The notes under the pieces: model-generated
Databases searched by the model: none
Told to the model about the DNA's origin: nothing
Seen by the model: only the letters and a program-made list of their open reading frames with translations
NCBI GenBank assembly: GCA_025463005.1
Contig: JAOAPR010000056.1
Coordinates: forward strand, 1-38,014
DNA from: Bryobacterales bacterium
GTDB taxonomy: Bacteria; Acidobacteriota; Terriglobia; Bryobacterales; Bryobacteraceae
Direction: 5' to 3'
Length of the DNA: 38,014 bases
Position numbers and translations under genes: made by a program
Shown here: piece after piece, positions 1,740 through 20,055 of the stretch
How the letters are laid out: every line of letters starts with the position of its first letter
How positions within the stretch are numbered: position 1 is the first letter of the stretch

Positions 1740-4190
1740 ATGTCTCAACCGCTCCCGGCCCCGCTCGCCGAAAATCCGCCCGCTGAATCGTCCTCATCAC
1801 GGTTTCTCCCGGTCCTGCTGATCTTGTTCTTCGGCAGCGGCTGTGCCGCCTTGATTTACGAGGTGGTTTGGTACCAGATGCTGCAACTGGCCATCGGCTC
1901 GACCACTATCTCGATGGGCGTGCTCCTGGCGACGTTCATGGGCGGGCTGTGTCTGGGCAGCATCGGACTGCCCCGCCTGCGCACGAACATGCATCCGTTG
2001 AAGGTATATGGGTTGATCGAGGCGGGGATCGCGGTGTTCGGCGTGCTGGTCTGGGTCGGCGTCCCGCTGATCGATCGCGTATACATCGCCGCCAACGGCG
2101 TGGGACTGCCGAATATGTTTCTGCGCGCGCTGGTGGCAGGAATCTGCCTGCTGCCGCCGACCGCGCTGATGGGCGCGTCGCTGCCGGCCGCGGCGAGATG
2201 GATCGAATCCACCCGCAGCGGCGTTTCCTGGTGGGGACTGCTGTACGGCACGAATACCGTCGGCGCGGTGTTCGGGTGTCTGCTGGCGGGTTTCTACCTG
2301 TTGAGGATGCATGGAGTGGGGGCGGCTACCTTGGCCGCTGTCGCGATCAACCTGATTGTCGCGGCGATCAGTTTCGTGCTGGCGGCACGAACTCCGGCGC
2401 GGAACCACATTCCTGACGCCGCCGAAGCGGCGGCAGACGGAGGCGGCCGCGGTTCGATCTACCTCACCATCGGGCTTTCAGGAGCGAGTGCCTTAGGGGC
2501 TGAAGTCGTCTGGACACGCCTGATGGGCATGATGCTGGGCTCAACCGTCTACGTCTTCTCGATCATCCTTGCGGTCTTTCTCATCGGATTAGCAATTGGT
2601 TCCACGGTGGGCGCCTGGATCTCGCGCACCGTGCGTCCGCGCCTGGCTCTGGGATGGTGCCAGATTCTGCTGACGGTCGGGATCGCGTGGACCGCGTACA
2701 TGATCGCGGGTTCGCTTCCCTACTGGCCGATCGATCCGCTGCTCAGCAGCAGCCCCTGGTTTACATTCCAGCTCGATATGGCGCGCTGCCTATGGGCGAT
2801 TCTGCCGCCGGCGCTCTTCTGGGGCGCGAGTTTCCCGCTGGCGCTGGCGACCGTTGCCGGCCCCGGTCAGGATCCCGGGAAGGTGGTTGGAAAGGTGTAT
2901 GCGGCCAATACCCTGGGTGCGATTGCAGGGGCGCTGTTGGTCAGCCTGATTCTGGTGCCGACCATCGGCACGCAGCAGTCCCAGCGGGTGCTGCTAGCGA
3001 TCGCCGCCATCAGCGCGTTCACGGCTCTTATGCCGTACGTGCGCGACCAGCGTTCGGTGGCGATTTCCGGACTGCTGGCCGCTTCCATGGTGCTTTCGAT
3101 GGTTCTGCTATTCGGCATCGGCGCGATTCCGGGCGAGCTGATCGCCTACGGCCGCCGGATGCCGATCAATACAGGCCAATCGACGATTCTCTACACTGCG
3201 GAGGGACGGAATTCGTCGGTTGCGATATCGCGATGGAACAGCGGCGAAGTCTATATCAACGTCAACGGGCACGTGGAGGCCACCACCGAGATCTACGACA
3301 TGAAGCTGCAGCGGATGGTGGGTCATCTGCCCGGTTTGCTGCATCCGAATCCGAAATCGGTCCTGGGTATCGGATTTGGTGCGGGCGTTTCGGCTGGAAC
3401 ATTCACCCGCTATCCCGGAATCGAGCACATCACCATTTGCGAAATCGAGCCGGTGATCCCGCCCACCTCCACGCGCTTTTTCGCGCGCCAGAACTACGAG
3501 GTCATGAACAACCCTCGCACCCGGATCGTGTACGACGATGCCAGGCACTACGTTCTGACCACGAAAAATAAGTACGACATCATCGCATCGGATCCTCTGG
3601 ACGTGTTCGCCAAGGGCACGGCGGCTCTGTATTCGAAGGAATACTTCGATGCGGTGAAGGCGCACCTGAATCCGGGCGGCTATTTTTCGCTGTACGTACC
3701 GCTCTATGAAAGCGACCTGCGCACAGTGAAAAGCGAGCTTGCGACATTCTTCGAATCCTTTCCGAACGCCACCGTGTGGGCCAACACGCGCAACGGGCAA
3801 GGTTACGACATGGTCTTCATGGGTCAGGCGGAGCCGCTGAAGATCAATGTCGACGAAGTGCAGCAAAGGCTCGACCGGCCGGATTATGCTCCCGTCGCAG
3901 AGTCGTTGCGCGAAGTGGGCGTGCCGTCGACGACCGCATTATTCGCCACGTATACGGGCCGCAAAGCCGATCTCGGGCAATGGTCCGCCGGCGCTGACAT
4001 AAACCGCGACAGTAATCTGCGGCTCTCCTATCTGGCTGGCTGGGGAATCAACTCACAACTAGCGGATGTGATCTATCGCGACATGCTCCGCTTTCGGCAA
4101 CCGCCCGCCGATGTTTTCACGGGATCGCCGCAGCTAGTCGAAGCGATTCTTGGCGCGCTCGAAGCGCCGGGCACCGGCCGGCAGCCGTAA
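1740..4190 (+). CDS. Fused membrane (MFS-like)/spermidine synthase-like protein
   Basis: An 816-residue inner-membrane protein. Roughly residues 20-470 hold many hydrophobic helices in two related halves: one begins ALIYEVVWYQMLQLAIGST, the other ALGAEVVWTRLMGMMLGST, and both continue into a glycine-rich G-L-x-L/I-G-S helix. This internal repeat is typical of fused MFS/spermidine synthase proteins. The C-terminal part (about 480-730) is a Rossmann methyltransferase-like aminopropyltransferase domain, with VLGIGFGAGVSAGTF as the nucleotide loop, ICEIEPV as the acidic strand, YDDARHY, and IIASDPLD near the usual catalytic aspartate. In classical SpeE this last motif is D-S-x-D-P; here the order differs, so polyamine synthesis is not assured. 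The family often occurs in bacteria without a proven substrate. A GATACT hexamer (1711-1716) may serve as its -10 box. Confidence 0.85.
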   Translation: MSQPLPAPLAENPPAESSSSRFLPVLLILFFGSGCAALIYEVVWYQMLQLAIGSTTISMGVLLATFMGGLCLGSIGLPRLRTNMHPLKVYGLIEAGIAVFGVLVWVGVPLIDRVYIAANGVGLPNMFLRALVAGICLLPPTALMGASLPAAARWIESTRSGVSWWGLLYGTNTVGAVFGCLLAGFYLLRMHGVGAATLAAVAINLIVAAISFVLAARTPARNHIPDAAEAAADGGGRGSIYLTIGLSGASALGAEVVWTRLMGMMLGSTVYVFSIILAVFLIGLAIGSTVGAWISRTVRPRLALGWCQILLTVGIAWTAYMIAGSLPYWPIDPLLSSSPWFTFQLDMARCLWAILPPALFWGASFPLALATVAGPGQDPGKVVGKVYAANTLGAIAGALLVSLILVPTIGTQQSQRVLLAIAAISAFTALMPYVRDQRSVAISGLLAASMVLSMVLLFGIGAIPGELIAYGRRMPINTGQSTILYTAEGRNSSVAISRWNSGEVYINVNGHVEATTEIYDMKLQRMVGHLPGLLHPNPKSVLGIGFGAGVSAGTFTRYPGIEHITICEIEPVIPPTSTRFFARQNYEVMNNPRTRIVYDDARHYVLTTKNKYDIIASDPLDVFAKGTAALYSKEYFDAVKAHLNPGGYFSLYVPLYESDLRTVKSELATFFESFPNATVWANTRNGQGYDMVFMGQAEPLKINVDEVQQRLDRPDYAPVAESLREVGVPSTTALFATYTGRKADLGQWSAGADINRDSNLRLSYLAGWGINSQLADVIYRDMLRFRQPPADVFTGSPQLVEAILGALEAPGTGRQP

Positions 4191-4221
4191 GAATTCGTAA
4201 TACCTCTCGAGACAACCCGCC

Positions 4222-4250
4222 TTGACCCTGTGCTTGCGCGGGAGTATGCT
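4222..4250 (+). promoter_or_regulatory. Sigma-70-type promoter of the first receptor gene
   Basis: TTGACC at 4222-4227 and TATGCT at 4245-4250 are separated by exactly 17 bp, close to the sigma-70 consensus. Transcription would start near 4257, giving a leader of about 67 nt before the ATG at 4324. The frame is open back to a TTG at 4222, but that TTG is the -35 box, so it is not a start codon. The same arrangement recurs before the next two genes. Confidence 0.75.
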
Positions 4251-4256
4251 CGTTAA

Positions 4257-4323
4257 GTTTTGGTTTTCTGAGAGGGGGGTCTCAGATTCCGAAGCAGTTC
4301 GGTTACTCCTAGGGGAGGTAACA
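4257..4323 (+). promoter_or_regulatory. Structured 5' leader of the first receptor gene
   Basis: This untranslated stretch can fold into three successive hairpins: TCTGAGA/TCTCAGA (4267-4286, loop of six G), CCGAA/TTCGG (4289-4302), and GTTACTCC paired with GGAG(G)TAAC (4302-4322). The last one buries the Shine-Dalgarno GGAGG (4314-4318) in its 3' arm, ending two bases before the ATG. The leader of the next paralogue (8118-8183) aligns with it: both have TTTGGTTTT, a G-run, TCTCAG, A-A-G-C, and end GGGGAGGTAAC. This suggests control of translation, by a ligand, a protein or RNA chaperoning. No known riboswitch class is recognised. Confidence 0.55.
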
Positions 4324-7300
4324 ATGCGCTCTTTTCTACTCTTTGCAGGTTCATTTGTATTCGCTCTGGCAATTCTTGGACAGAGCGACCGCGGAACCAT
4401 TACTGGAACGATTTCCGATCCCGCCGGCGCAGTTGTTGCAAGCGCCAAGGTAGAAGCGAAGAACATCGCGACTTCCGCCGTATATAGCGCTGCCAGCACG
4501 GACACCGGCAATTACACTCTCTCGCAGTTGCCGGCTGGGGACTACGAGCTTAACGTCGCCGTCCAAGGTTTTAAGAAATATGTCCGCCAAGGCATTACCG
4601 TTCAGGTGGCCGGCACGCTGCGCGTCGACGTGGTGCTCGAAGTCGGCGCGACAACCGAGTCCGTTACGGTTACCGAATCGACGCCGCTACTGAAGACTGA
4701 AAGCGGCGAGCTGAGCCATAACGTCAGTACCGATAAGCTCGATAATCTCCCCGCTATTACGCTTGGCTCAGGAACGTCCGTTGGCAACATTCGAAACCCG
4801 TTGCAGGCGATTACGCTACTGCCAGGCACTGCGTTCGCCACCGACAACACCCTCCGGGTGAACGGGATGCCTTCCAGTACATACTCCATCCGCATTGAAG
4901 GCCAGGATGCCACCAACGGCATTAGTCGCCAGTCAACGCAGGTAAATCAGGCAGGCCTGGACGCGATCCAGGAAGTGACGGTCCAGACCAGCAACTATGC
5001 GGCCGAGTTTGGGCAGGCGGGGGGCGGGTACTTCAACTACACGATGAAGTCGGGCACCAACCAGTTCCACGGCAGCGCGTACGACTATTTTGTAAACGAA
5101 GCGCTGAACGCCGGCACGCCCTTCACCGCCGGAACTGGAGACAAGAGCAATCAGCACCTGCGAAGCGCGCAGCGCCGGAACGATTATGGATTTACGTTCG
5201 GCGGTCCGATCAGGATACCGAAAGTCTACAACGGTCACGACAAGAGTTTCTTCTTCTTTAACTTTGAGCAGTTCCGGGAGTCGCAAACGGTGACCACCGG
5301 GTTGCAAAATGTCCCGACCCTGGCCTACCGTGCGGGAGACTTCAGCGCAGCTCAAGGGGCTCAGTTGACCATCGGCGGCCAGCCGGCTTCCGATGCCCTG
5401 GGCAACCCCCTCTTCCAGAACGCGGTTTACGACCCGAAAACGCAACGCGTCGCGCTCGATGGCTCCATCGTCCGGCTTCAGTATCCGGGAAACAAAATCC
5501 CCCTAACCGATATGGATCCGGTGGCGGCCAGGATTCAGGCGATGATCCCGCTGCCGACAAACAACGGGCTGATTAACAACTACGCGGTCCCGGCGTATAC
5601 CAACTTCCGGCACACCGAGATTCCGTCGATCAAGATCGACCACAACATCAGCTCGACCATCAAAGTGGCCGGGTATTACTCGGCGACGCGCACCTACTCG
5701 CCCCAAGCCGATGGCTACACGCAGGCGTTTACCAACGCATATCCGCAGGATACGCTGTCGCAAACCACTCGCATCAACTACGACCAGACCATTACACCGA
5801 CAGTCCTGCTGCATCTGGGCGCGGGTCTTCTTTACACGAACACAAACCAGCTAACGCCCCAGTTCGATCAAAGCACGCTCGGCTGGGGAGGCAACTTTAC
5901 CTATTCGCAAGCGTTCCCCTACATATCCTTCGGGAACGATGCAGCACGAGGCGGTTTCTCTCTCCCGGGGAATAACGCCACCGGCCAGGCGTTCCTTTTT
6001 GCGTATTACAAGGACATCAAGCCCACCTCGAACGCGAGCCTTACCTGGGTCAAGGGGAACCACACCATCAAGACGGGCGGGGAAGTGATCTTTGAGGGAA
6101 CTCCCGTTCAGAGTTATTCGCGCGCGCACGGTAATTTCACCTTTGCCGCGCAACAGTCGGGTAATCCCTGGGAGGAAGCCAGAGGTCTGAACTCCACCAC
6201 CGGATTAGGCTATGCCAGCTTCTTGCTGGGCAGGAACAGCGCGCTGCAACATTCCGCGGGCGCGAACGGCCGGCTGGGCGATCATTCCTCAGGGTTCTAC
6301 ATCCAGGACACCTGGAAGGTGACCCGCAAGCTGACGCTCGACTACGGACTGCGATACGACTACGTAACACTCTACAAAGAGGAATATGGCCGCATGCAGA
6401 ATGCCGCTCTCCATCTGCCGAATCCTGCTGCCGGCGGACGGCTGGGCACGGTAATCTACGAAGCCACGTGCAACTGCAGTTACAATCACAACTACCCGTG
6501 GGCTATCGGCCCGCGCCTGGGGGCCGCCTACCAGATCAACGCCAAGACTGTTCTTCGGGTCGGGGCGGGTCTGGCTTACGGAACCTCTCCCAACCAGCAA
6601 AACCTGGGGTATAGCATCGGGGACTTCTATACGGTTACAACACCGGGATATGGAGAAGCCGCGGATCTTCTGCGGGACGGGAATCCATATGCCCCCGGCA
6701 ACCGTTTTGGCAACGCCCCTATTTTTTGGCCGGATTTTCGTCCCAATTACCCCATCGAGGTTTCTCCGGGCTTGAGGCCGCCGACATCGCCGTTCATTTA
6801 CGTGGACCGGAACTCGGGACGTCCGCCGCGCATCCTTCAGTGGAGCATCGGGCTGCAGCGCGAGATCACACGCAACCTGGTGGTGGAAGCCGCGTATGTA
6901 GGGAACCGCGGCGTCTGGTGGACGGCGCCGGCGCTCTCCACTGAGAGCTACAACGCGCTCACGCCCGATATCCTGAGCGCCTATGGCCTGAACACCAATG
7001 TTGCGGCCGACCGCACACTGCTTACGACCCGCATCAACTCACCGGCCGTGATCTCGCGGTTCCCGTGGCTGGCGAATCCGAATAACGTCTATCCGGGATT
7101 CCCAGCGACCTCAAGCCTGAACCAGGCGCTGCGTCCGCAGCCGCAGTGGGGCACGCTCTCGCCCTTCCTGGGACCTCCTCTGGGAGATACCTGGTACGAT
7201 TCGCTGCAGGCCAAGGTGACCAAGCGCTTTTCCCACGGGCTGAGCGTGGATTCGGCCTTCACCTGGCAGAAAGAGCTGGCTCTGGGCGCAAACGCCGACA

Positions 7301-8049
7301 CGACGTACTTAACGCCCGCTCCAGCCCTCATCAGCGACGTGTTCAACCGGAACACCAACAAGCAGCTTTCGGCCTTCAGCCGGCCGTTGATGCTGGTGGT
7401 GTCGTTTAACTACACCACTCCCAGGATCGCGGCGGACGGAGCCGGAATGAAGGTGATGTCGTGGATGGCGCGGGACTGGATCGTCGCGGGATTACTCCGC
7501 TACCAGAGCGGGCAACTGATTCGAAGCCCCGCTTCCAACAATGGCTTCTTCGCGCAGACACTCCGCAACGCATTTGGAGTCTTTGGCGGAGGGAATACTT
7601 TCTGGAACCGGGTCCAGGGCCAGAATCTGTTTCTGGTGGATCCCAACTGCAAGTGCTTTGACCCGACCACGCAGCTCGTGCTGAATCCAGCAGCCTGGAC
7701 GGACGCTGCGCCGGGCCAGTTCGGGACGTCCGCCGCCTACTACGACAACTATCGCTGGCAGCGCCAGCCCGCAGAATCTCTGAGTTTAGGGAGAAACTTC
7801 CGCCTGTTCCGCGAAGGGATGAACTTCAACATCCGGGCGGAGTTCCAGAACGTTTTCAACCGCTTGTATCTGGCGAATCCTGCTCTAGTCAATGTCTCCG
7901 GCTTCAATCCGACGCCCTCTAGCCCGTCTGCTCCAACCGTTCGAAACGCAACCGGTGCTCTTTCGTCCGGCTATGGATTCGTGAACACGTTTAACGGGAA
8001 CGGATCGCAGCCGCGAAGCGGGCAGATCGTCGCCAGGATTACGTTCTAG
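4324..8049 (+). CDS. Oar-like TonB-dependent-receptor-type outer membrane protein (paralogue 1)
   Basis: A 1,241-residue outer-membrane protein. The signal peptide is MRSFLLFAGSFVFALAILGQ. A carboxypeptidase-regulatory-like beta-sandwich follows (about 21-105, with TGTISDPAGAVVASAKV and TGNYTLSQLPAGDYEL), then a plug-like segment (TESTPLLKTESGELSHNV, TLRVNGMPSSTYSIRIEGQD, GGGYFNYTMKSGTNQFHGS), and a long beta-barrel ending SGQIVARITF. The terminal Phe fits the BAM insertion signal. The ATG at 4324 is chosen because GGGGAGG precedes it and a promoter lies upstream; the frame stays open further 5'. Oar-like proteins are abundant in Acidobacteriota and are thought to import or bind large ligands with TonB, but substrates are mostly unknown. 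A close paralogue follows in tandem, and a third (frameshifted) lies at 16282-20030. Neighbouring SusD, TonB or ExbBD genes are absent. Confidence 0.9.
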   Translation: MRSFLLFAGSFVFALAILGQSDRGTITGTISDPAGAVVASAKVEAKNIATSAVYSAASTDTGNYTLSQLPAGDYELNVAVQGFKKYVRQGITVQVAGTLRVDVVLEVGATTESVTVTESTPLLKTESGELSHNVSTDKLDNLPAITLGSGTSVGNIRNPLQAITLLPGTAFATDNTLRVNGMPSSTYSIRIEGQDATNGISRQSTQVNQAGLDAIQEVTVQTSNYAAEFGQAGGGYFNYTMKSGTNQFHGSAYDYFVNEALNAGTPFTAGTGDKSNQHLRSAQRRNDYGFTFGGPIRIPKVYNGHDKSFFFFNFEQFRESQTVTTGLQNVPTLAYRAGDFSAAQGAQLTIGGQPASDALGNPLFQNAVYDPKTQRVALDGSIVRLQYPGNKIPLTDMDPVAARIQAMIPLPTNNGLINNYAVPAYTNFRHTEIPSIKIDHNISSTIKVAGYYSATRTYSPQADGYTQAFTNAYPQDTLSQTTRINYDQTITPTVLLHLGAGLLYTNTNQLTPQFDQSTLGWGGNFTYSQAFPYISFGNDAARGGFSLPGNNATGQAFLFAYYKDIKPTSNASLTWVKGNHTIKTGGEVIFEGTPVQSYSRAHGNFTFAAQQSGNPWEEARGLNSTTGLGYASFLLGRNSALQHSAGANGRLGDHSSGFYIQDTWKVTRKLTLDYGLRYDYVTLYKEEYGRMQNAALHLPNPAAGGRLGTVIYEATCNCSYNHNYPWAIGPRLGAAYQINAKTVLRVGAGLAYGTSPNQQNLGYSIGDFYTVTTPGYGEAADLLRDGNPYAPGNRFGNAPIFWPDFRPNYPIEVSPGLRPPTSPFIYVDRNSGRPPRILQWSIGLQREITRNLVVEAAYVGNRGVWWTAPALSTESYNALTPDILSAYGLNTNVAADRTLLTTRINSPAVISRFPWLANPNNVYPGFPATSSLNQALRPQPQWGTLSPFLGPPLGDTWYDSLQAKVTKRFSHGLSVDSAFTWQKELALGANADTTYLTPAPALISDVFNRNTNKQLSAFSRPLMLVVSFNYTTPRIAADGAGMKVMSWMARDWIVAGLLRYQSGQLIRSPASNNGFFAQTLRNAFGVFGGGNTFWNRVQGQNLFLVDPNCKCFDPTTQLVLNPAAWTDAAPGQFGTSAAYYDNYRWQRQPAESLSLGRNFRLFREGMNFNIRAEFQNVFNRLYLANPALVNVSGFNPTPSSPSAPTVRNATGALSSGYGFVNTFNGNGSQPRSGQIVARITF

Positions 8050-8081
8050 ATTCCGGCGGTTGGGATAGGGAAGCACCCGGC

Positions 8082-8110
8082 TTGACGTCGGTTTTTCGCG
8101 GGGGTAAACT
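8082..8110 (+). promoter_or_regulatory. Sigma-70-type promoter of the second receptor gene
   Basis: TTGACG (8082-8087) and TAAACT (8105-8110) are 17 bp apart. The -10 box sits within an inverted repeat, GGGGGT (8100-8105) and ACCCCC (8112-8117), that could be an operator or just G/C-rich flank. It is in the 134-bp gap between the two receptor genes, so the second gene can be transcribed independently of the first. Confidence 0.7.
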
Positions 8111-8117
8111 AACCCCC

Positions 8118-8183
8118 AGCTTTGGTTTTGTTGGGAAGGGGTTCTCAGCCCCAAAGCGAGTTGTTATCTGATGGGGAGGTAAC
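8118..8183 (+). promoter_or_regulatory. Structured 5' leader of the second receptor gene
   Basis: Related to the leader at 4257-4323. GCTTTGG (8119-8125) can pair with CCAAAGC (8151-8157), or alternatively GGGG (8138-8141) with CCCC (8149-8152): two mutually exclusive folds. A second helix pairs GTTATC (8163-8168) with GGTAAC (8178-8183), covering the 3' end of the Shine-Dalgarno GGGGAGG directly before the ATG at 8184. Compared with the first leader, the GTTAC/GTAAC pair becomes GTTAT/GTAAC with a G-U wobble, so pairing is kept despite the base change. Confidence 0.5.
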
Positions 8184-11100
8184 ATGCGTTCCTTACTACT
8201 TTCTGCAGCACTATTACTTTTTGCTCTTTCTACATTTGCGCAAAGCGATCGCGGTTCGATCACCGGGACGATTGCCGATCCGGCTGGAGCCGTCGTCGCA
8301 GGGGCGCAGGTGGAAGCGAAGAACGTCGATTCCGGTACGGTATACAACGTGGCCAGTACGAGCACGGGTAACTTTACCCTTGCCCAGTTGCCGACCGGAA
8401 ACTACGAACTGACTGTCACTGTCACAGGCTTCAAGAAGTTCGTTCGACAGAACATCGCCGTTCAAGTGGCCACCACCACCCGTGTGGACGTGGCGCTGCA
8501 AGTCGGCGCAACTTCCGATACGGTGACTGTTACGGAGTCCTCGCCTCTGCTGAAAACTGAGAGCGGGGAAGTCAGCCACAACTTCGAATCGGACCGGCTA
8601 AACAGTCTCCCGGTTATCAGTCTGGGGACCGCCACTGGGACGCTCGGCAACGTGCGGAACCCCTTGCAGGTGGTCAATCTGATGCCGGGAGCGGCGTTTG
8701 CCAACGATAATACGTTGCGAGTAAACGGCATGCCTTCCAGCACGCAGTCCATTCGCATTGAGGGCCAGGACGCCACCAACGGTATCTGGCGCCAGACCAA
8801 TCAGGACACGCAACCGAGCCTGGACGCAGTTCAGGAAGTGTCGGTTCAAACCAGCAACTATGCTGCGGAGTACGGTCAGGCCGGCGGCGGATACTTCAAC
8901 TTCACCATGAAGTCCGGCACCAATCAGTATCACGGCGGCGCATATGATTACTTTGTGAATGAAGCCTTGAACGCCGGAACCCCGTTCACCGATGCGAGCC
9001 TTACCAACAGCCTGAAGGCGGGACAGCACATTCGAAATCGGCAGCGCAAGAACGACTACGGATTCACTTTTGGCGGACCGATCAGGATCCCCAAGATCTA
9101 TGACGGTCACGATAAGAGCTTCTTCTTTTTCAACTTTGAGCAGTATCGTGAGGCCCTGAACGTTGGCACGGGAACTTCTACGGTACCGACTGCCGCCTAC
9201 CTGCAAGGCAACTTCGCCGGTGCGCTTGGGGCTCTTCTCCCTCTTACGGACCCGCTGGGCCGCCAGGTTTTCCAAAATGAAATCTTCGACCCGAAGTCGC
9301 AAACCACTGCGCCAGACGGCTCCCTCGTTCGCACTCCGTTCACGAATAATGCGATCCCCTTGACTTCCATTGACCCAGTGGCTGCGAAAGTTCAGGCGAT
9401 GCTTCCGCTAGCAACCAACCCCACGGCAAAAGTAAACAACTACATCATCCCGGGGTATCAAAATTTCCGGCACACTACGATTCCATCCTTTAAACTGGAC
9501 CACAACCTGAGTTCCGCGATCAAGTTGTCGATGTATTACTCCTATACGCACACGGCATCACCCAACGCCAACGGGTTCGCGCAGGTGTTTACCAGCGCGG
9601 AACCGTCGGATACCGAGTCGCGTACCACCCGCGTCAATTATGATCAGACCATTTCGCCGACGATGTTGCTGCACTTGGGCGCTGGTCTGCTGGCCACGAC
9701 TCGGCCCGCAATCCCTCCAACCTTCGACCAGGGCCAGTTCTGGGCTCCGAACCAGCAGTTCTATATCAACCAGTTTCCGAATATCGGGGGCTTGAACGAT
9801 GCCTTCAATGGCGGCACCAGCATTGGCCTTGGTTCGGCTTTCGGCGCCACCTTCGTGAAGGACCTGAAGCCTACTGGAAACGCCAGCCTCACTTGGGTAA
9901 AAGGCAACCACACGTTCAAGCTGGGCGGGGAAATGGTGATCGAGGGGATTCCCACGTTGAACACGTCCCGGGCTTCCGGTGTGATCACCTTCGCCCCCCA
10001 ACAGACTGGCGAACCCTGGGAGCTCGGCAAGAATCTGAACAACCTGACAACCGGCTTCGGCTACGCCAGCTTCTTCCTTGGCGCGGTTGGCGGGTTCAAT
10101 ATAACTCCTGTCGCAGAAACACGAATGGGCAACCATTCCTTCGCGATGTATCTCCAGGACACTTGGAAGGTTACTCGAAAGCTGACGCTCGACTACGGGT
10201 TGCGCTACGACTACCAAACCGAGCAGAAGGAACAGTACGGCCGCATGCAGAACGCCGCGTTTAATACGCCGAACCCAAATGCCGGCGGGCGCAACGGTAC
10301 AGTGATTTACGAAGGCGATGGCGGAGGCCGCTGCAACTGTAGGTTCCAGAGCAACTATCCGTATGCAATTGGGCCGCGGCTTGGAGTCGCCTATCAGATT
10401 AACGCCAAGACCGTGCTCCGTGCGGGCGCCGGCCTGGCTTACGGAACTTCGCCCAACAACGCCTTCCTTTCCTACAGCGTCAACGACTTCTATCCTGTGA
10501 CGCCTGCCTACGGCCAAGTAGTGAGCCAATTGAAGGACGGGAATCCGTATCAAGTGGGTAACCCCTTCGGCAACCCACCTTTCCACTATCCGGACTTTAC
10601 TCCCCATTTCCCGTTCGCGACCGCGCCTGGCGTGGTTCCGCCCGTATCAGTGTTCATCTCGATCGATCGCAATGGTGGCCGGCCTCCACGCATTTTCCAA
10701 TGGAGCTTCGGGCTGCAGCGGGAGGTTATGCGCGACCTAGTGGTTGAGGCCGCTTGGGTAGGGAATCGGGGAGCATGGTGGACGGCTCCGCTGCTCGCGA
10801 CGCAGAATTACAACGCACTGCAACCCGCGGACCTGGCGAAAATCGGTATCGATTTGACCAATCCCGCCGATCGGGCGCTCCTGACAGCTCCCATCGCTTC
10901 AGCGTTGGTGATCTCCAGGTTCCCGTATTTAGCGAATCCCAATAACGTCTACCCAGGATTCCCGAATAACCAGCAATTAATCCAGGCGCTCAAGCCTTAC
11001 CCGCAGTGGCTGGGAATCCCGCCTTTCCTAGGGCCGCCGCTCGGCGACACCTGGTACGATTCGCTCCAGGCTAAAGTAACCAAGCGCTACTCCCATGGAT

Positions 11101-11918
11101 TGGACGTCCAGGGCGCTTTCACCTGGCAGAAAGAACTGACGCGCGGGGTCAACTCCGATACATCTTACCTAACGCCGCAAGCGCCGCTGATCAATGACGT
11201 CTTCAACTACGCAACCGCCAAGCAGATCTCGGGTTTCAGCCGTCCTCTGCAGTTGATCATTTCCTTCAACTACACGACTCCGGGATTGAAAGGTGATGGC
11301 GCCACCATGAAAGCGTTATCGTGGGCTGCCCGCGACTGGACTGTCGGTAGCGTACTTCGTTATCAGAGTGGAGCGCTCCTTCGTATTCCCGCCTCCAACA
11401 ACCAATTGCTTACCCAGTTGGGCCGTGGGCCGGCGAATAATCCCGCCTTGTGGGGCGGCGGCGCTACTTTCGTAAACCGGGTTAACGGGGTGAGCCCGTT
11501 CCTCCAGGACCCCAACTGCCATTGCATCGATCCGACCCAGCAACTCGTGCTGAATCCGGCCGCTTGGCAAGACGTACCGGCAGGCCAATTTGGGGCCGGG
11601 GCTCCCTACTATAACGACTACCGGTGGCAGCGCCAGCCGCAGGAGGCGTTCAACGTTGGCCGGAACTTCCGGCTGGCCAAAGAAGGCAAGGTCAATCTCA
11701 ATGTCAGGGCGGAGTTCCAGAACATATTCAACCGGCTAACTCTATCCGCTCCCGGAGCGCCTCCAGCCGCCGGATCGAACGTCTCGAACATTGCTCAGCC
11801 AGTAGCCCACAACAATCCGGGCCAGGCGCTTTCCGCCGGGTTTGGATTCGCGAATACCTTTAACGGTGCCGGAACCAATCCTCGGTCGGGCCAGATCGTG
11901 GCGCGTATCACGTTCTGA
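8184..11918 (+). CDS. Oar-like TonB-dependent-receptor-type outer membrane protein (paralogue 2)
   Basis: A 1,244-residue protein colinear with the preceding receptor: signal peptide (MRSLLLSAALLLFALSTFAQ), regulatory-like beta-sandwich (SDRGSITGTIADPAGAVVAG), plug-like motifs (TLRVNGMPSSTQSIRIEGQD, GGGYFNFTMKSGTNQYHGG), and a barrel ending SGQIVARITF with the terminal Phe. The two are clearly the product of a tandem duplication, including promoter and leader. They differ most in presumed surface-loop segments (for example after LLHLGAGLL, and in the C-terminal 300 residues), so ligand range may differ. The start at the ATG of 8184 follows GGGGAGGTAAC. The gene downstream has a separate promoter. 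The ligand is unknown; export of substrates or an adhesive role cannot be excluded. Confidence 0.9.
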   Translation: MRSLLLSAALLLFALSTFAQSDRGSITGTIADPAGAVVAGAQVEAKNVDSGTVYNVASTSTGNFTLAQLPTGNYELTVTVTGFKKFVRQNIAVQVATTTRVDVALQVGATSDTVTVTESSPLLKTESGEVSHNFESDRLNSLPVISLGTATGTLGNVRNPLQVVNLMPGAAFANDNTLRVNGMPSSTQSIRIEGQDATNGIWRQTNQDTQPSLDAVQEVSVQTSNYAAEYGQAGGGYFNFTMKSGTNQYHGGAYDYFVNEALNAGTPFTDASLTNSLKAGQHIRNRQRKNDYGFTFGGPIRIPKIYDGHDKSFFFFNFEQYREALNVGTGTSTVPTAAYLQGNFAGALGALLPLTDPLGRQVFQNEIFDPKSQTTAPDGSLVRTPFTNNAIPLTSIDPVAAKVQAMLPLATNPTAKVNNYIIPGYQNFRHTTIPSFKLDHNLSSAIKLSMYYSYTHTASPNANGFAQVFTSAEPSDTESRTTRVNYDQTISPTMLLHLGAGLLATTRPAIPPTFDQGQFWAPNQQFYINQFPNIGGLNDAFNGGTSIGLGSAFGATFVKDLKPTGNASLTWVKGNHTFKLGGEMVIEGIPTLNTSRASGVITFAPQQTGEPWELGKNLNNLTTGFGYASFFLGAVGGFNITPVAETRMGNHSFAMYLQDTWKVTRKLTLDYGLRYDYQTEQKEQYGRMQNAAFNTPNPNAGGRNGTVIYEGDGGGRCNCRFQSNYPYAIGPRLGVAYQINAKTVLRAGAGLAYGTSPNNAFLSYSVNDFYPVTPAYGQVVSQLKDGNPYQVGNPFGNPPFHYPDFTPHFPFATAPGVVPPVSVFISIDRNGGRPPRIFQWSFGLQREVMRDLVVEAAWVGNRGAWWTAPLLATQNYNALQPADLAKIGIDLTNPADRALLTAPIASALVISRFPYLANPNNVYPGFPNNQQLIQALKPYPQWLGIPPFLGPPLGDTWYDSLQAKVTKRYSHGLDVQGAFTWQKELTRGVNSDTSYLTPQAPLINDVFNYATAKQISGFSRPLQLIISFNYTTPGLKGDGATMKALSWAARDWTVGSVLRYQSGALLRIPASNNQLLTQLGRGPANNPALWGGGATFVNRVNGVSPFLQDPNCHCIDPTQQLVLNPAAWQDVPAGQFGAGAPYYNDYRWQRQPQEAFNVGRNFRLAKEGKVNLNVRAEFQNIFNRLTLSAPGAPPAAGSNVSNIAQPVAHNNPGQALSAGFGFANTFNGAGTNPRSGQIVARITF

Positions 11919-11945
11919 GTTTATTTCGAGCGTGTTTTCGGACGT

Positions 11946-11974
11946 TTGACGCTGCCGGTGGGCGGTGATAACGT
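11946..11974 (+). promoter_or_regulatory. Sigma-70-type promoter of the molybdenum hydroxylase gene
   Basis: TTGACG (11946-11951) and TAACGT (11969-11974) with a 17-bp spacer, in the 75-bp gap after the second receptor gene. The expected transcript start near 11981 is just ahead of the Shine-Dalgarno GGAGG (11984-11988). The in-frame TTG at 11946 is the -35 element, which rules it out as a start codon. Confidence 0.6.
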
Positions 11975-11993
11975 CGGTAGAGCTGGAGGCGTT

Positions 11994-14189
11994 ATGAAAA
12001 CCACCACTCGTATCGATCGCCGGTCATTTCTTCGCGTAACGTCGGTGGCCGGCGGCGGAATGCTGCTCGGTCTCTACACGAAGCCTCTCAGCTCCCAGGC
12101 GCAAGGCCAAGCAGCCGCGCCGCTAAAGGCTGACGCGTTTATCCGCATCGGGGCCGATGGGTCGGTCACGATCATGGCCAAGAATCCCGAAGTCGGCCAG
12201 GGCGTCAAGACCCACCTGCCGATGATCATCGCGGATGAACTGGACGTCGATTGGAAGGACGTCAAAATACAGCAGGCCGATCTCGATCAGGCCAAGTACG
12301 GACCGCAATCCGCCGGCGGCAGCAATTCGACGCCGACTAATTGGGATCCGCTGCGGCTGGTGGGCGCGACCGGACGGCAGATGATGCTCACTGCGGCCGC
12401 GCAGACCTGGAACGTGCCGGAATCGGAATGTTCGACGGCTTCGGGTAAGGTTACACACCGGCCGAGCAACCGGACGGCAGGCTACGGCGCGCTGGCAGCG
12501 AAGGCTGCCACGTTGCCCCCGCCCGATCCAAAGTCGGTGAAGCTCAAGGATGCCAAGGATTACAAAATTATCGGCCAGCCTTTGGTCGGTGTCGATGTAG
12601 CCGCGATTGTCACCGGAAAACCGATCTTCAGCATCGATTTCACCGTTCCCGGAATGCTCTACGCGGTGTTCGAAAAGTGTCCCGTATTCGGCGGCAAGGC
12701 GAAGAGCGCAAATCTGGACGTCATCAAGGCGATGCCGGGAGTCCGCCACGCGTTCATCGTGGAAGGCGGGACGCAGCTCACGGGTTTACTCTCTGGAGTT
12801 GCGATTGTCGCCGATACCTGGTGGCAGGCGCGCACGGCTCGCCAGAAGCTTCAGGTGGTATGGGATGAGGGTCCTACTGCGACGCAATCCACGATCGGGT
12901 TTGCCCAAAAGGCCGACGAACTGTCGAAACAGCCTCCAGGATTCGCATTGCGAAACGACGGAAATGCCGACAGCGCGCTTGCGGGCGCTGCGAAAGTCGT
13001 CGAGGCGGCCTACTCGTATCCGTTTATTTCGCACGCGCCGCTGGAGCCGGAGAACACCGTCGCCCATTTCAAGGACGGCAAGCTCGAGATCTGGGCGCCC
13101 AGCCAAACCCCGGCAGCGGGGCTTCAGGTCGTCACGCAGACTCTCGGATTGCAGAACAGCGACGTCGTGTTCCACCAGGTGCGCGGCGGGGGCGGTTTTG
13201 GTCGACGGCTGACCAACGACTACGCGGTCGAGGCAGCTTGGATCGCCAAGCAGGTCGGAGTGCCGGTGAAGCTCCTGTGGACTCGCGAAGACGACATGGC
13301 GCACGATTTCTATCGTCCCGGCGGTTTCCACTATTTGAAGGGTGGCGTGGATGGTTCGGGGAAGCTGGTCGCCTGGCGCAATCACTATGTGAGCTTTGGT
13401 GAAGGCCAGCGGTTCGCGCCGCAGGCGAATATCAACCAGAATGAATTTCCTGCCACGTTCGTGCCAAACTTTTCTTTCCAGTCGAGCCTGATGCCGCTAG
13501 GCGTGCCGACGGGCGCGATGCGCGCGCCGCGCAGCAACGGATTTTGCTTCGTCTTCCAGTCCTTCGTCGACGAACTGGCGCACGCCGCCGGGAAAGATCC
13601 TTTGCAATTCCGGATCGACCTGGTGGGAGCTACGCGCGTGGGGACCGCCGCGGACGCCGACTTAGATGGCTCGCGAATGCGCGGGGTTTTGGAGCTGGTT
13701 CGCGAGAAATCCGGCTGGGGCAAGAAGAACCTTTCGAAGGGTCGCGCGCTGGGCGTGGCATTCCAATTCGCGCACCGCGGTTATTTCGCCGAAGTAGTCG
13801 ACCTGACCGTCGACGCCAACAGCAAGGTGAAGGTCAACAAAGTCTGGGTGGCGGCGGACATCGGCCGCCATATCATCAATCCGAGCAACGCCGAGAATCA
13901 GGTGCAGGGGTCGGTGATTGAGGCGCTGAGCAGCGTGATGTCGTGGGAGATCACGATCGAGCGCGGCCGGGCGATGCAGGCCAACTTCGATAAGTATCCG
14001 CCGGTGCGAATTTCACAAGCGCCGCCTGAGATCGAGGTGCACTGGCTGAAGTCGGACAACCCTCCTACGGGACTGGGCGAGCCCGCCGTGCCCGCGATCC
14101 TGCCGGCGGTGACGAACGCCATCTTCGTCGCAACCACTAAACGGATCCGCTCACTGCCGCTAGCGAAGCACGGATTTAGCTGGGCGTAA
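11994..14189 (+). CDS. Xanthine dehydrogenase-family molybdopterin-binding subunit (IorB-like), Tat-exported
   Basis: A 731-residue large subunit of a molybdenum hydroxylase. A twin-arginine signal ([15 protein letters not shown], residues about 8-22) predicts folded export to the periplasm. Family motifs in order are: [39 protein letters not shown] (Moco-binding glycine loop), [20 protein letters not shown], and [17 protein letters not shown], whose Glu corresponds to the conserved active-site glutamate. It resembles isoquinoline 1-oxidoreductase beta and periplasmic aldehyde dehydrogenase (PaoC) subunits, which hydroxylate N-heterocycles or oxidise aldehydes. Such enzymes need a small 2Fe-2S subunit and usually a cytochrome; neither is next to it. 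The start at 11994 has GGAGG upstream and keeps the Tat motif near the N-terminus. The gene is convergent with the PQQ dehydrogenase, 11 bp away. The substrate is unknown. Confidence 0.88.
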
Positions 14190-14200
14190 TTTCGGCAGCG

Positions 14201-16213
14201 CTAATTATTTGCCGGCAGCGCGAAAGCGACCAGTTCGGCGTTATATCCCTGGCCGCTGATCGCGACAACAATGTACTGCTTGCCGTTGAGCATGTAGGTC
14301 ATCGGCGATCCGCTCTGTGGAGCCGGAATGTACACCTTGCCGGCATCCTTGCCACTAGCCTTGTCGTAAGCCCTCAGATACGCCCCGCGACGGCCGTCGG
14401 CCATCGTGACCACGCCTTTTTCGCCGGCGACGAGCAGAGTTTTGGTGACCAGCGTTCCCGCCTGACCGGGCCGCCCCGTGCGCGGGATGTTCATGCCCTG
14501 GAGCGCCGGATGATTCCGAATATTGTCCGGAGTGTCACCGTGCGCCACCTGCCACAGGATCTCACCCTTGTTGAGGTCGATCGCCGTGATGCGCCCGTAG
14601 GGCGGTTTGAGCAGCGGCAATCCCTGAACGGTCAGTCCACCGCCCGGACCCCCTGCGGCGGGAGCTGCCGCGCCGCCGCGACCACCCGAGGCAGCCGAGG
14701 GCGCCGGAGGCGGCTCTGGACCGCGCGCCTGACCCGAGATATAGTTCATATCTGATCGCGTCCCGCCGGGAACTAATCCGATCGCGGTGACCGTGGTTTG
14801 TGAAGAGACGTACGCGACGTGCGTCTCAGGATCGTACGACCCTCCCGGCCAGTTCGATCCGCCGCCCGCGGTCGCCGCTGTCAGAGTCGCCAGCGGGCCG
14901 TCAAAACTGCTGACGACTCCCGGTGTAAACATCGGCCCGATTTTGTAGCGCGAAACCAGTTTGACGGCCTCTGCGCGAAGCTGCGGCGTGAAATCGATCA
15001 GATCGTTGATCGAGATGCCCTGCAGATCGTAGGCCGGCGGTTTGGTCGGGAACGGTTGCGTGGGCGAATACCATTCGCCCGGAACATTTCCTTTTTCGAC
15101 CGGCTTCTCGACGATGGGCCAGATGGGCTCGCCCGTCTCGCGGTTCAGAACGTACATGAACGCCTGTTTGGTGGGCTGGGCCACGGCTTTCACGGTGCGG
15201 CCGTTGATGGTGATGTCGGCCAGGATCGGCGGGCACGGATTATCCATGTCCCAAATGCCGTGGTGAATGTACTGGTAGTGCCACTTGCGTGCGCCGGTCT
15301 TAAGATCCACCGCTACGATGCTCTCGCCAAACAATCCTGCGCCCGGACGATGGCCGCCGTAGTAGTCGCCGGTGGGCATCTCGACGCCGATGTAGGCCAA
15401 GCCGAGCTGCTCGTCGATCGACATTTGTCCCCACGCGCCGGTGTTGCCGGTATAAGCCCAGGAATCCTGTTCCCAGGTGTTCAGCCCGAACTCGCCGGGC
15501 TTGGGAATGGTGTGGAAGATCCACAGGCGCTTGCCGGTGCGGGCGTCATAGCCGCGCACATAACCCTTCACGTTGGTCTTGCTAACCGGGACACCTCCGG
15601 GCTTGTGAGCGGCTCCCACGACCACCGTGTTGCCGGCGACGAGCGGCGCCGAGTGCAATCCGATATCTGGGCTGAGCGGATCGATCTCCTGATCGTCGTC
15701 TGCTTTGAGATCCACCATGCCGTTCTTTCCGAAAGCGGGAATGCGGATGCCGGTCTTGGCGTCGAGCGCCACCATCTGATAGCCCGGAGTGACGTAGATA
15801 ATGCGCTCCTCGCGGCCATCGGTCCAGTACGCCAGGCCGCGTCCGGAAAGCTGCCGGGGTGCGGCGGTTCCGCGCTGGCCTTCGTTCTCGCCGTGGACCC
15901 ACAGCAGCTCACCAGTGGCCCCATCCAGCGCGACTACTGAGCGTCGAGTTCCGGCAGTCGAGTAAAGTACGCCTTTGACCATCAGCGGCGTGCCTTCCAG
16001 ATTGGCTTCCGGCTTGGGGCCGAGATTATCGGTCTTGAAGCGCCACGCGACTTCCAGCTTGTCGAAATTAGCGGCGCTGATCTGGTCGAGCGCGGAGTAG
16101 CGGGTATTCCCGAGATCGCCGCCATAGGTCGGCCATTCTCCGTTTTTCGCTCCCGTCTGCGCCAGAAGGGATGACCCCGCCAAGAGCAAGCACGCTAACA
16201 ATGTTCGATTCAT
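14201..16213 (-). CDS. PQQ-dependent dehydrogenase (quinoprotein, no haem domain)
   Basis: A 670-residue exported quinoprotein. The signal peptide (MNRTLLACLLLAGSSLLAQ) is followed by GEWPTYGGDLGNTRYSALDQ, the usual opening of PQQ glucose/alcohol dehydrogenase propellers. Repeated propeller-blade motifs include VALDGATGELLWVHGE, VALDAKTGIRIPAFG, GYDARTGKRLWIFH, VDLKTGARKWHYQ and AIDLNKGEILWQVAHGD. No C-x-x-C-H is present, so electrons must go to a separate carrier. A Pro/Gly/Ala-rich insert (about residues 545-575) interrupts the propeller. The enzyme would oxidise alcohols or sugars in the periplasm. The ATG at 16213 has GAGGAGA in front and a TATAAT box 22 bp upstream; the frame is open further 5', but that part overlaps the end of the receptor gene. 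Cofactor synthesis genes (pqq) are not in the window. Confidence 0.85.
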   Translation of the reverse strand: MNRTLLACLLLAGSSLLAQTGAKNGEWPTYGGDLGNTRYSALDQISAANFDKLEVAWRFKTDNLGPKPEANLEGTPLMVKGVLYSTAGTRRSVVALDGATGELLWVHGENEGQRGTAAPRQLSGRGLAYWTDGREERIIYVTPGYQMVALDAKTGIRIPAFGKNGMVDLKADDDQEIDPLSPDIGLHSAPLVAGNTVVVGAAHKPGGVPVSKTNVKGYVRGYDARTGKRLWIFHTIPKPGEFGLNTWEQDSWAYTGNTGAWGQMSIDEQLGLAYIGVEMPTGDYYGGHRPGAGLFGESIVAVDLKTGARKWHYQYIHHGIWDMDNPCPPILADITINGRTVKAVAQPTKQAFMYVLNRETGEPIWPIVEKPVEKGNVPGEWYSPTQPFPTKPPAYDLQGISINDLIDFTPQLRAEAVKLVSRYKIGPMFTPGVVSSFDGPLATLTAATAGGGSNWPGGSYDPETHVAYVSSQTTVTAIGLVPGGTRSDMNYISGQARGPEPPPAPSAASGGRGGAAAPAAGGPGGGLTVQGLPLLKPPYGRITAIDLNKGEILWQVAHGDTPDNIRNHPALQGMNIPRTGRPGQAGTLVTKTLLVAGEKGVVTMADGRRGAYLRAYDKASGKDAGKVYIPAPQSGSPMTYMLNGKQYIVVAISGQGYNAELVAFALPANN

Positions 16214-16235
16214 GGATCTCCTCGTTCGTCGATAG

Positions 16236-16264
16236 ATTATATACGCGCGGAGTGACAAACTCCA
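16236..16264 (-). promoter_or_regulatory. Promoter candidate for the PQQ dehydrogenase gene
   Basis: On the minus strand a perfect TATAAT occupies 16241-16236, with a weak -35 (TGGAGT, 16264-16259) 17 bp away. Transcription would start near 16229, leaving a short leader with GAGGAGA before the ATG at 16213. It lies in the 68-bp gap after the receptor pseudogene. Confidence 0.5.
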
Positions 16265-16281
16265 TGCCCACGGGATCCGGC

Positions 16282-19200
16282 TTAGAACTGCAGGCGGGCG
16301 ACGATTTGGCCGGAGCGCTGTCCGCTGGTGCCGCTCAGAGGATTGATCGTTCCGAAGCCGCCCGTAAACTGGCCCAAAGCATTTTGCGTCGGCGCCGCGG
16401 TGAAGCTTCCGATCGTTACGGGGGCAAGGCCGGTCCCTCCATAGCGCAGGCGGTTGAAGGCGTTGCTCCATTCCGCACGGATCTGCAGATTAATCGTCTC
16501 CGTCATCCGGAAATTCCGGCTGAAGCTCACGTTCTCCTGCGGCTGGCGAATGCCACGGAAGTAGCGAATGGCGGTGGCCTGGTTAGCGGCCCACTGACCG
16601 TCTGGCACGGGCTGCCATGCGTTCTTGTTCAGGACGATGGTCTTGGTCGGGTCAAAACAATGGCAGTTGATATCGATAGGGTCGTTGTGATGAACCCCAC
16701 CGAGATCCGTCCAGTCCGTGGACCAAATCGATTGTCCCGATAATAGCTGAGCCGGCCCAGGGCCACGGCCGAGATAGTTGCTGATGGGATCGACAGCGGC
16801 CGAGGTAGGAAGTGCGAGCGCTGCGGCGCTCTGGTATTGAACGTACCAGCCCATTCCCCAATCACTAACGATCGCTGAGATAATTTTTGCGAGGCGGAGC
16901 TTGGGAACAGTGTATTCGGCGGAGAGTCGTAACTGATGCGGGTAATCATTCGGCGACAGAGTTTTTCCCAGACCGTAATTAAAGACGTCCGGCTCATTCA
17001 TCTCCTGCAACGTCTTGGAGAAGGTGTAATTCGCATTCAGCGATAGCCCGTGGGACAGCCGCTTGGTTACGACGAGCTGCAGGGCATCGTACCAGGTCTT
17101 TCCCAACGGAGAGTTACCTGGTGCAATCGCGTTGTTGTACTGCGGGAAGGCGCGGATAATCTGGCGCGGCGTCTGGCCCTGATCGTAATTCGGATAGGGC
17201 AGGAAGACCCTACGCGAGGCCAACAACGATAGGTCGGCCGCGCTGAGATTTCTCCAGGGAGTTGTGAGCAGACGTTTGTCGGTAGAATTTCCGATGGTGA
17301 ATCCGTACCGCGCCAATAAAGCGTCGGAGATGTCATTAAAGCCCGGCGTGGCCTGCTGCCCTAGGCCGGGTGACCACCACACTCCCCTACTGCCTACATA
17401 GGATGCTTCAACAATCAGGTTGCGCCCAATCTCGCGCTGGAGGCCGAGGCTGAATTGAACCTGCCTGGCTGGTCGTCCGGCGTTCGGGTCCAAATATGCC
17501 GGTGCAGTCGCGACCGCATTTAGAGGCAGCCCGACGTTCGCGTCAAATCGCGGCCACTGCGGCGTCACGTAAGTCGGGATGCCATCTTTCAACTGGAAAA
17601 GCCACTGACCGAACGCCGGCGATCCACCAGTGGCCGTGTTGCTGGCCGAACCAGCGACGCCCGGAGTCGCCGTGTATACGATTCCGAGCCCCCCGCGCAG
17701 CACAGTCTTCGAGTTGATCTGGAATGCTGCACCCAGCCTCGGTCCGACGGCGAAAGGATAGCTCTTGGCAAATGCGCAATTGCAGGTCGCCTCGAAGATC
17801 GATCCTCCCGGGTGACCGGCTGCGGAAGAATTAGGAATGGTCGGATTGAAGTTCGCGTTCCGGCCGTACTGCTCCTTGGCGTAGGTGCCATAGTCCCACC
17901 GGATACCGTAATCCACGGTGAGCTTGCGAGTAATTTTCCAGCTGTCCTGGGTGAACACGCCCCATTGCCACTTGGAGGTCCTGATATCGGCGGGGACGGC
18001 TAGGGTCACTCCCGTAACATCTCCCAGCAGGTAATCGGCGAACGGGAACCCCGTGCTGCCTTGCGATGTAGTCAGACCGGTGAGAGAGATTTGCGAGGTC
18101 GCTCCGTTGGCTCCAAACACATAGGAGCCAGCGGTGTTGGTGAAGGTTTGCGTCGGATACTCTTCGTAGCGAGCCTCCATTCCAGCTTTGTGGGTATGGC
18201 TTCCTTTGACCCAGCTCAAGTTGAAGTTCGCGGAGGGCCGATGTTCAGTCCCGGCTGAGCTCTGGACGCCGCCCGCTGGCCCGAGACTGGACATGCCGCC
18301 GGTCGCCTGGGCGCACGCGAAGAACGGCGCCGTTCCGCACTGGCACTGAAATTCGGGAAATTGCGATTCACCGTAGCGCCCTGTAGTCCCAACGACGCTA
18401 GCGCGTTATAGTCCACGACCGGAGCATCGTCAGAGCTGTTATTGGCCGAATAACCCACGCCGAAGTGCAGCAGCAGCGACGGAGTCAGGGTGTGGTCGTA
18501 ATTACCGCGAATTGTCGGCGAGTAGACGAACGTGCCGCGTGCCGGATCGATCGGCAGGGGCAAGCCCACCGAATTGCCGTTCGGGAACGGGAACTGTGAC
18601 TCCGTAACCGTGCGGCCGTAATAGAAAGCCAGGTGACCTTTGGAGCTGAGTTGATGGTCCATCTTAAGGGATGGGATTTGCGAGGTACGATGACTCAGCC
18701 ACGGGTTCTGGTAGTTGTTGCCGAGTTGGCCGGATGCTGCGTTCGGTCCGGTAGGGCCGGGGACCAGCGCCAGGATCTTCGCCGAGACGGGGTCAATTGA
18801 CTGGAGCGGGATCTTGTTACCCGGAAACTGCGTACGAACAACGATACTCGCGCCGGGAGTGCAAAAAGAGCTCAGCGCAGAATTGCAAATTACGCTCTGA
18901 GTGCTCGCAGGGTCGTAAATCGCGCCAGACACGACCTTGTTTCCGAGCGGATCGATATAATCCTTGCCACCGACTTGAACGAAGCGCGGGCCAGCGGCTG
19001 TTCCGGATCCAGTGATGACCTCCGTAAAGTCGCCGTTCCGATATTGCGGCGTGGGAACTGTCCCGGTCGTGCTGGTAACGTGCAGGTTTTCCCTGTACTG
19101 CTCAAAGTTGAAGAAGAAGAATGTTTTGTTCTCGCCGTCGTAGATTTTCGGGATCCGGACGGGCCCGCCCAGTGTCCCGCCGTAATCGAACCTTCGCTGC

Positions 19201-20030: not shown

Positions 20031-20041
20031 GCGTGGATTCC

Positions 20042-20055
20042 CCAAATATATTTGG
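20042..20055. promoter_or_regulatory. Perfect 14-bp palindrome before the third receptor gene
   Basis: CCAAATATATTTGG is a perfect palindrome whose edge touches the Shine-Dalgarno (GGGGA) of the minus-strand ATG at 20030. An adjoining GGCC-N5-GGCC inverted repeat lies just upstream on that strand (20053-20066 region). It may bind a dimeric regulator or form an RNA hairpin; only position and symmetry support this. Confidence 0.35.

Follow-up and report, generated by a model that had tools for sequence, protein, structure and literature searches.

Two tandem genes for large outer-membrane receptors, W1 and W2, raise the question of whether the short leaders ahead of them carry a shared RNA structure that acts on receptor expression. 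The genes lie in a 38,014-nucleotide (nt) stretch of Bryobacterales bacterium, an acidobacterium from soil (GenBank assembly GCA_025463005.1, contig JAOAPR010000056.1, positions 1 to 38,014), referred to below as the window. The proteins combine a carboxypeptidase-regulatory-like domain with a beta-barrel, and we take them to be Oar-like receptors. A first-pass annotation had proposed that the two leaders align, that a helix in each closes over the Shine-Dalgarno (SD) sequence and that the leaders thereby regulate translation in cis. The leaders are indeed homologous over positions 4257-4323 and 8118-8183, and the structure common to them is a predicted two-tier hairpin at the inferred 5' end. 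This fold is unusually stable for the gene family, has been kept across the paired changes that separate W1 from W2 and, in these two leaders, is predicted to form independently of the downstream sequence. A possible role of the hairpin is to protect the message or to tag it, and the leader is best read as a young, lineage-restricted structured 5' end, real but modest.

Folded from the inferred transcription start to the ATG, both leaders show an outer 7-bp helix, a U-rich internal loop, an inner helix of 7-8 bp and a G-run loop (Table 1), with a small helix around the SD standing separate from the hairpin. In both W1 and W2 the hairpin begins about 1 nt past the predicted start. The outer arms of W1 are GTTTTGG and CCGAAGC and its inner arms TCTGAGA and TCTCAGA, and the outer arms of W2 are GCTTTGG and CCAAAGC. 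The first-pass annotation had seen an upstream hairpin in both leaders, which holds, and had described the two as built from different sequence, which does not, as each leader has both tiers and one tier had been listed from each. From W1 to W2 the inner helix changes a U-A pair to G-C, a C-G pair to U-G and an A-U pair to G-U, and two wobble pairs change in the outer helix, with pairing kept in both helices. The leader folds have z scores of -3.06 (W1) and -3.26 (W2), shuffles being as stable in 2 of 200 and 0 of 200 cases, respectively. Stretches of 126 nt from 4255 and 8115, which run on into the genes, do not exceed shuffles in stability (z 0.22 and -0.77), and a W2 stretch begun three bases earlier takes an alternative fold from an upstream CCC. 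The stability result depends on the ends chosen, and the transcription start, which is inferred, matters. When 3-120 nt of coding sequence are included, the pairing probability of the hairpin is at least 0.98 in W1 and 1.00 in W2, both at 15 °C and at 37 °C.

Each leader sits after a sigma70-like promoter, and the W1 and W2 transcripts therefore probably start at A4256 and A8118. The promoter scan covered one 201-base stretch per leader (4150-4350 and 8010-8210). By eye, an AG with its A 6-9 nt past the -10 element is found in 11 of 12 leaders of the cluster to which W1 and W2 belong, the exception being L242, which has none there. A set of 199 related receptor leaders, with start codons and promoters assigned by script, was reduced to 174 by removing 25 with less than 50% N-terminal identity; an own predicted promoter was present in 140 of these, 34 lacking one at a promoter score of 9, as against 10% of letter-shuffled upstream sequences. 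In this set the inferred start lies a median of 57 nt from the start codon. These acidobacteria hold many Oar-like receptors; a few share the structured 5' end, and most examined leaders have their own predicted promoter. A dyad over the -10 element (GGGGGT..ACCCCC in W2) was considered and discarded, being at chance level in the 140 promoters (at least 4 letters in 33 against an expected 32.0). At 8077-8091 on the plus strand, a terminator-like stem with TTTTT after it overlaps the -35 element of the W2 promoter and perhaps marks the end of the W1 transcript.

Table 1. Coordinates, in the window, of the genes W1 and W2 and of the predicted features of their leaders
Feature	Position	Strand	Details
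Two-tier hairpin of W1	4257..4295	+	outer 4257-4263/4289-4295; inner 4267-4273/4280-4286; loop GGGGGG 4274-4279
Two-tier hairpin of W2	8119..8157	+	outer 8119-8125/8151-8157; inner 8130-8137/8142-8149; loop GGGG
5' leader of W1	4256..4323	+	start inferred at A4256, +6 from -10; from promoter position and AG start
5' leader of W2	8118..8183	+	start inferred at A8118, +8 from -10; from promoter position and AG start
Predicted sigma70-like promoter of W1	4222..4250	+	TTGACC-17-TATGCT; 1 found, shuffles mean 0.0
Predicted sigma70-like promoter of W2	8082..8110	+	TTGACG-17-TAAACT; 1 found, shuffles mean 0.0
Possible ribosome-binding-site helix of W1	4302..4322	+	GTTACTCC with GGA and GTAAC; predicted fold
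Possible ribosome-binding-site helix of W2	8162..8184	+	TGTTATCT with AGGTAACA; SD GGGG in loop; predicted fold
Gene W1	4324..8049	+	1241-aa outer-membrane receptor; PF13620 and PF25183
Gene W2	8184..11918	+	1244-aa outer-membrane receptor; PF13620 and PF25183

To see how far the leader extends, homologous copies were sought by letters and by structure. A plain DNA search with the promoter and leader of W1 plus the first 77 bases of its coding sequence against 61 genomes, its own included, gave two good matches elsewhere, both in the congener G020 (copies G20a and G20b; expectation values (E) 3.5e-16 and 1.8e-13); at the limit of E up to 10, a match of some kind appears in 59 of the 61 genomes, the other matches being weak. 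The W2 leader is absent among the matches listed, and the letter similarity of the W1 and W2 leaders is therefore modest. A structure model built from W2 alone (R1) finds the W1 leader with E 6.9e-4 for its genome. A second model (R2) was built from four sequences aligned to R1, so that counts made on this alignment lean to that structure. Within the window R2 matches at the W1 and W2 leaders and nowhere else, in agreement with the earlier remark that the third receptor paralogue lacks the element. Among 237 genomes of the family, 6 are matched with E not above 1, at receptor genes in the case of G000, G020 and G014, the others being L090-L092; the matches are good in two genomes and weak, at a receptor gene, in a third (G014). 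The same three genomes were returned at E up to 0.1 from 257 genomes of the order, and no further good copy was found in either the family or the order set under stricter filters. When the search was repeated permissively on 36 genomes, with E up to 5, 6 of them gave a total of 13 matches. The window together with 77 loci (78 sources) gave 7 matches at E up to 10, of which that in L113, on the opposite strand, was taken as chance, and that in L120, from another genome of the genus (4944-5003, the L061 leader), scores 19.4 bits with E 0.19 and stands exactly before the receptor start codon.

The copies differ in how they fold. G20b folds like W1 and W2 despite a different inner stem (UGCGA/UCGUA) and keeps its hairpin independent of the SD and coding region with a probability of at least 0.82, and G20a has the inner arms UCCGGGA/UCUCAGA with one mismatch. 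The weaker relative in G014 (G14), which lies ahead of a receptor gene, keeps the start letters. In a protein tree of 36 of about 87 long proteins, which leaves out the short copies G20b, G20c (the G020 orthologue of W2) and G14, W1, L094 (G20a) and W2, which carry the element, stand together with non-carriers in a single clade of 18 rows; G20b and G14 are tied to L004, a member of this clade, on identity alone. W1 and W2 are 63% identical, compared with 69% between W1 and G20a and 83% between W2 and G20c. Judged by these relationships, the pair is not a recent duplicate, because each gene is closer to its own orthologue in G020 and gene order is kept there. The similarity of the leaders thus reaches beyond a recent duplicate pair. 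The conserved order is W1, W2, a molybdopterin-binding protein and a pyrroloquinoline quinone (PQQ) dehydrogenase (window 4324-16471; L051 in G020), the last two being about 90% identical.

The explanation that we place first, tentatively, is that the 5'-terminal hairpin of W1 and W2 is an mRNA stabilizer of the ompA kind. The stem-loop in the 5' untranslated region (UTR) of Escherichia coli ompA is reported to stabilize its message (Emory 1992 and Arnold 1998, as cited in the available text of PMC7509114 and referenced in that of PMC3997798). By analogy, the shared leader would be a promoter-plus-5'-UTR block inherited within one clade of Oar-like receptor genes, in which the stem-loop would hide the mRNA 5' end from end-dependent decay and form an insulated domain ahead of a strong SD. 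The result would be a longer life of the long receptor mRNA, as in ompA. Like the ompA element, the hairpin is placed at the 5' end, given the predicted starts, lies apart from the SD and belongs to the mRNA of an outer-membrane protein, and both W1 and W2 are large outer-membrane proteins with their own predicted promoters. Unlike the ompA element, it is present in a few paralogues of one genus, and the likeness drawn here is one of anatomy.

Ranking close behind the stabilizer is shared ancestry without an RNA function, in which a few paralogues would have co-inherited leader and promoter and the hairpin would be drifting sequence whose G- and T-runs fold easily; we consider this possible and only slightly less probable. 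The stability of the pair is difficult to reconcile with it. When neutral mutants were simulated with the observed number of changes, descendants of W1 were as stable as W2 in 50 of 4000 cases and descendants of W2 as stable as W1 in 48 of 4000 (about 1.2%), in a test that uses substitutions alone, ignores insertions and deletions and was applied to a pair not chosen blind. The same test toward G20b gave 340 of 4000 from W1 and 439 of 4000 from W2. When the first 44 nt were folded in the 99 leaders left after 41 shorter than 45 nt were removed from the 140, W1, G20b and W2 were outliers, at ranks 1, 2 and 9 by z score. In the alignment of four sequences, which was fitted to the structure, 90.1% of cells are paired; letter shuffles average 86.4% and reach that value in 48 of 500 cases, so that the difference is not significant, but sliding the partner strand lowers pairing to at most 57.7%. 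For the 5' hairpin of W1 and W2, the earlier suggestion of retained structure with altered sequence is borne out.

Several observations weigh against the stabilizer, and part of them favor drift. The covariation check that had been proposed could draw on four sequences, and its score was reached by 81 of 500 letter shuffles, which is not significant; 4 pairs are changed on both sides compared with 2.3 in shuffles, with 78 of 500 as high. Neutral mutants easily reach the stability of G20a (1300 of 4000 from W1 and 1023 of 4000 from W2), and this copy keeps the letters, yet its hairpin probability is only 0 to 0.56. Neither G14 (z -0.03) nor the 5' part of the L061 leader L120 (z 0.11) folds into the hairpin. 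G20c, for all its 83% identity to W2, is without the element and has a different leader, as does L004, an orthologue of G20b (82%), and the element is therefore dispensable. Such rapid loss, the narrow spread over 2 of 237 family genomes with a weak match in G014, and a promoter spacer that by eye is conserved in the cluster together with the leader RNA are what co-inheritance followed by drift would give. Across the family, the 99 leaders have a mean z of -0.30 and 87 pre-promoter stretches one of -0.13 (p 0.17), so that 5' hairpins as a family-wide feature were rejected.

While the inner stems change, the G-run stays in the loop of W1, W2, G20a and G20b (GGGGGG, AGGGGU, UGGGGU and AGGGGU). 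This pattern would fit a landing site for a trans partner, in which the loop is bound by a small RNA with a C-rich loop or by a protein. The model for it is the small RNA sX13 of Xanthomonas, for which mRNAs with 4G motifs close to the start are targets of repression (PMC3771888, available text). As in the sX13 targets there described, W1 and W2 have G-runs near the start, here in the hairpin loop and the SD; unlike in those targets, the G-run loops are no clear family trait and the partner small RNA is hypothetical. Dinucleotide shuffles gave GGG in a loop in 14 of 68 leaders against 5.3 expected. With G-runs kept whole in the shuffles, the count was 14 of 56 against 8.5, without the W clade 10 of 50 against 7.4 (standard deviation 2.4), and before promoters 7 of 43 against 4.9, so that the G-loop was rejected as a family trait, and a landing site is on balance unlikely. 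A bolder version, to which we give slightly less credence, is that the leaders form a new, fast-evolving class on Oar-like mRNAs of one acidobacterial genus, whose stem would drift by compensation while presenting a GGGG loop to a putative small RNA or protein acting on several paralogous receptors.

A second set of receptor leaders (L021, L034, L172, L189 and L212), placed in the cluster by similarity, has the kept promoter spacer and AG start with hairpins of its own. The hairpin of L172 has a z of -2.97, and L034 and L172 precede neighboring genes in G014. A G-loop that had been seen in this set by eye was discarded, as predicted folds place the GGG in a stem in 4 of the 5.

The helix on which the first-pass annotation had centered can form: GTTACTCC at 4302-4309 and GTTATC at 8163-8168 are able to pair with GGTAAC next to the ATG. 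Its proposed role as a control of translation finds no support, since in W1 and W2 SD pairing is below that of most shuffles and the helix largely dissolves with 60-120 nt of coding sequence, and the frequency of such helices is near chance. Over the 14 nt that precede the start, pairing averages 0.57 in W1 and 0.51 in W2, and in 60 shuffles that keep the SD, 85% (W1) and 97% (W2) have at least as high a pairing of the SD region; neither leader has its SD paired beyond chance, as an SD-sequestering switch would. In the wider set, 55 of 171 leaders have a helix of at least 5 pairs that ends at the start codon, compared with 46.6 expected; 12 have one of at least 7 pairs, compared with 10.5, and 7 one of at least 8 pairs, compared with 4.9. 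Pairing of the W1 spacer is 0.62-0.75 when the coding sequence included is 3 or 30 nt long (0.67 with 30 nt), and its pairing with the leader at 37 °C is 0.19 with 60 nt and 0.00 with 120 nt. Spacer-leader pairing in W2 falls from 1.00 with 3 nt to at most 0.18 with 30, 60 or 120 nt (at 37 °C, 0.18 with 60 nt and 0.03 with 120 nt). At 60 or 120 nt and 37 °C the 5' hairpin of both leaders stays at 0.99 or above. When a G-rich leader is folded without the coding sequence that follows it, a helix that seems to close the SD can result.

A switch in which this helix governs receptor translation, whether as a riboswitch, a thermometer or in an attenuator-like manner, is the least probable of the explanations considered, although some observations speak for it. 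Folded alone, the leaders of W1, W2 and G20a are all predicted to form the helix, and in G20a it persists in most contexts (0.77 with 60 nt and 0.69 with 120 nt). The exact helix recurs in 2% (W1), 0% (W2) and 4% (G20a) of 100 shuffles, which is individually unlikely, but the three share descent. At the same place L120 has GUUGUC/GGCAAC around the SD where W2 has GUUAUC/GGUAAC, a paired change from A-U to G-C. In 112 of an earlier set of 135 leaders, SD-region pairing is slightly high, with 16% at a rank of 0.1 or below and a mean rank of 0.47. On the other side, among the five leaders in which the 5' segment is conserved, G20b and G14 have only 3 or 4 pairs at the ribosome site (3 in G20b). 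The three terminator-like sites in the scanned stretches 4150-4350 and 8010-8210 are all upstream of the inferred starts, so that no hairpin followed by a U-run, as in a transcription attenuator, was found past the 5' hairpin there. Closure of the ribosome site was rejected as a family feature, the small excesses in the 112 and 171 leaders remaining, and it is not supported by the modeled folds as the regulating step. A comparison can be made with the chuA FourU thermometer (PMC9002310, available text), likewise a structured leader of an outer-membrane receptor with a possible helix on the side of the ribosome-binding site. Unlike in chuA as described there, the modeled 5' hairpin of W1 and W2 is unchanged between 15 and 37 °C, and in their predicted folds the SD is paired with neither of the UUUU runs.

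The first-pass annotation had recognized no known riboswitch class in the leaders, and Rfam gives none: no Rfam 15 family matches them, and at the gathering score there are no matches in the window. A permissive Rfam search returned none in 8020-8300 and, in 4150-4450, a single weak match (E 3.2) that lies within the gene and on the opposite strand. Judged by titles and the openings of abstracts, no report on leaders of Oar-like acidobacterial genes was found among the open-access articles listed by the searches made. Acido-1 (RF01686), Acido-Lenti-1 (RF01687) and Solibacter-1 resemble the W1 and W2 leaders in being structured RNAs from Acidobacteria (PMC2864571, available text), and differ from the proposed function of these leaders in that all three carry an 'n' under cis-regulatory in the table of that article. 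The text available for Solibacter-1 gives no Rfam accession, which places this RNA outside the Rfam comparison.

The surroundings of the two genes add a number of minor points. Relatives of the W2 protein come mostly from Terriglobia, Bryobacterales and other acidobacterial metagenome-assembled genomes (MAGs), and a search of W2 against its own genome gave 125 matching pieces, some genes being split over several. The third Oar-like paralogue, on the minus strand at 16282-20045 with an ATG at about 20030, consists of two overlapping frames of 609 and 670 aa, indicating a frameshifted gene or an assembly error. In L051 of G020, a frame change near the end of the W2 orthologue breaks the gene. 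Upstream of W1, positions 1740-4190 on the plus strand encode an 816-aa protein with a spermine-synthase domain. At the orthologous loci L052, L116 and L004, relatives of it with 48-51% identity follow downstream of Oar-like genes. L145, a record titled as a Bordetella parapertussis MAG, encodes an Oar-like protein with 44% identity to W2, which suggests a mislabeled or mixed bin.

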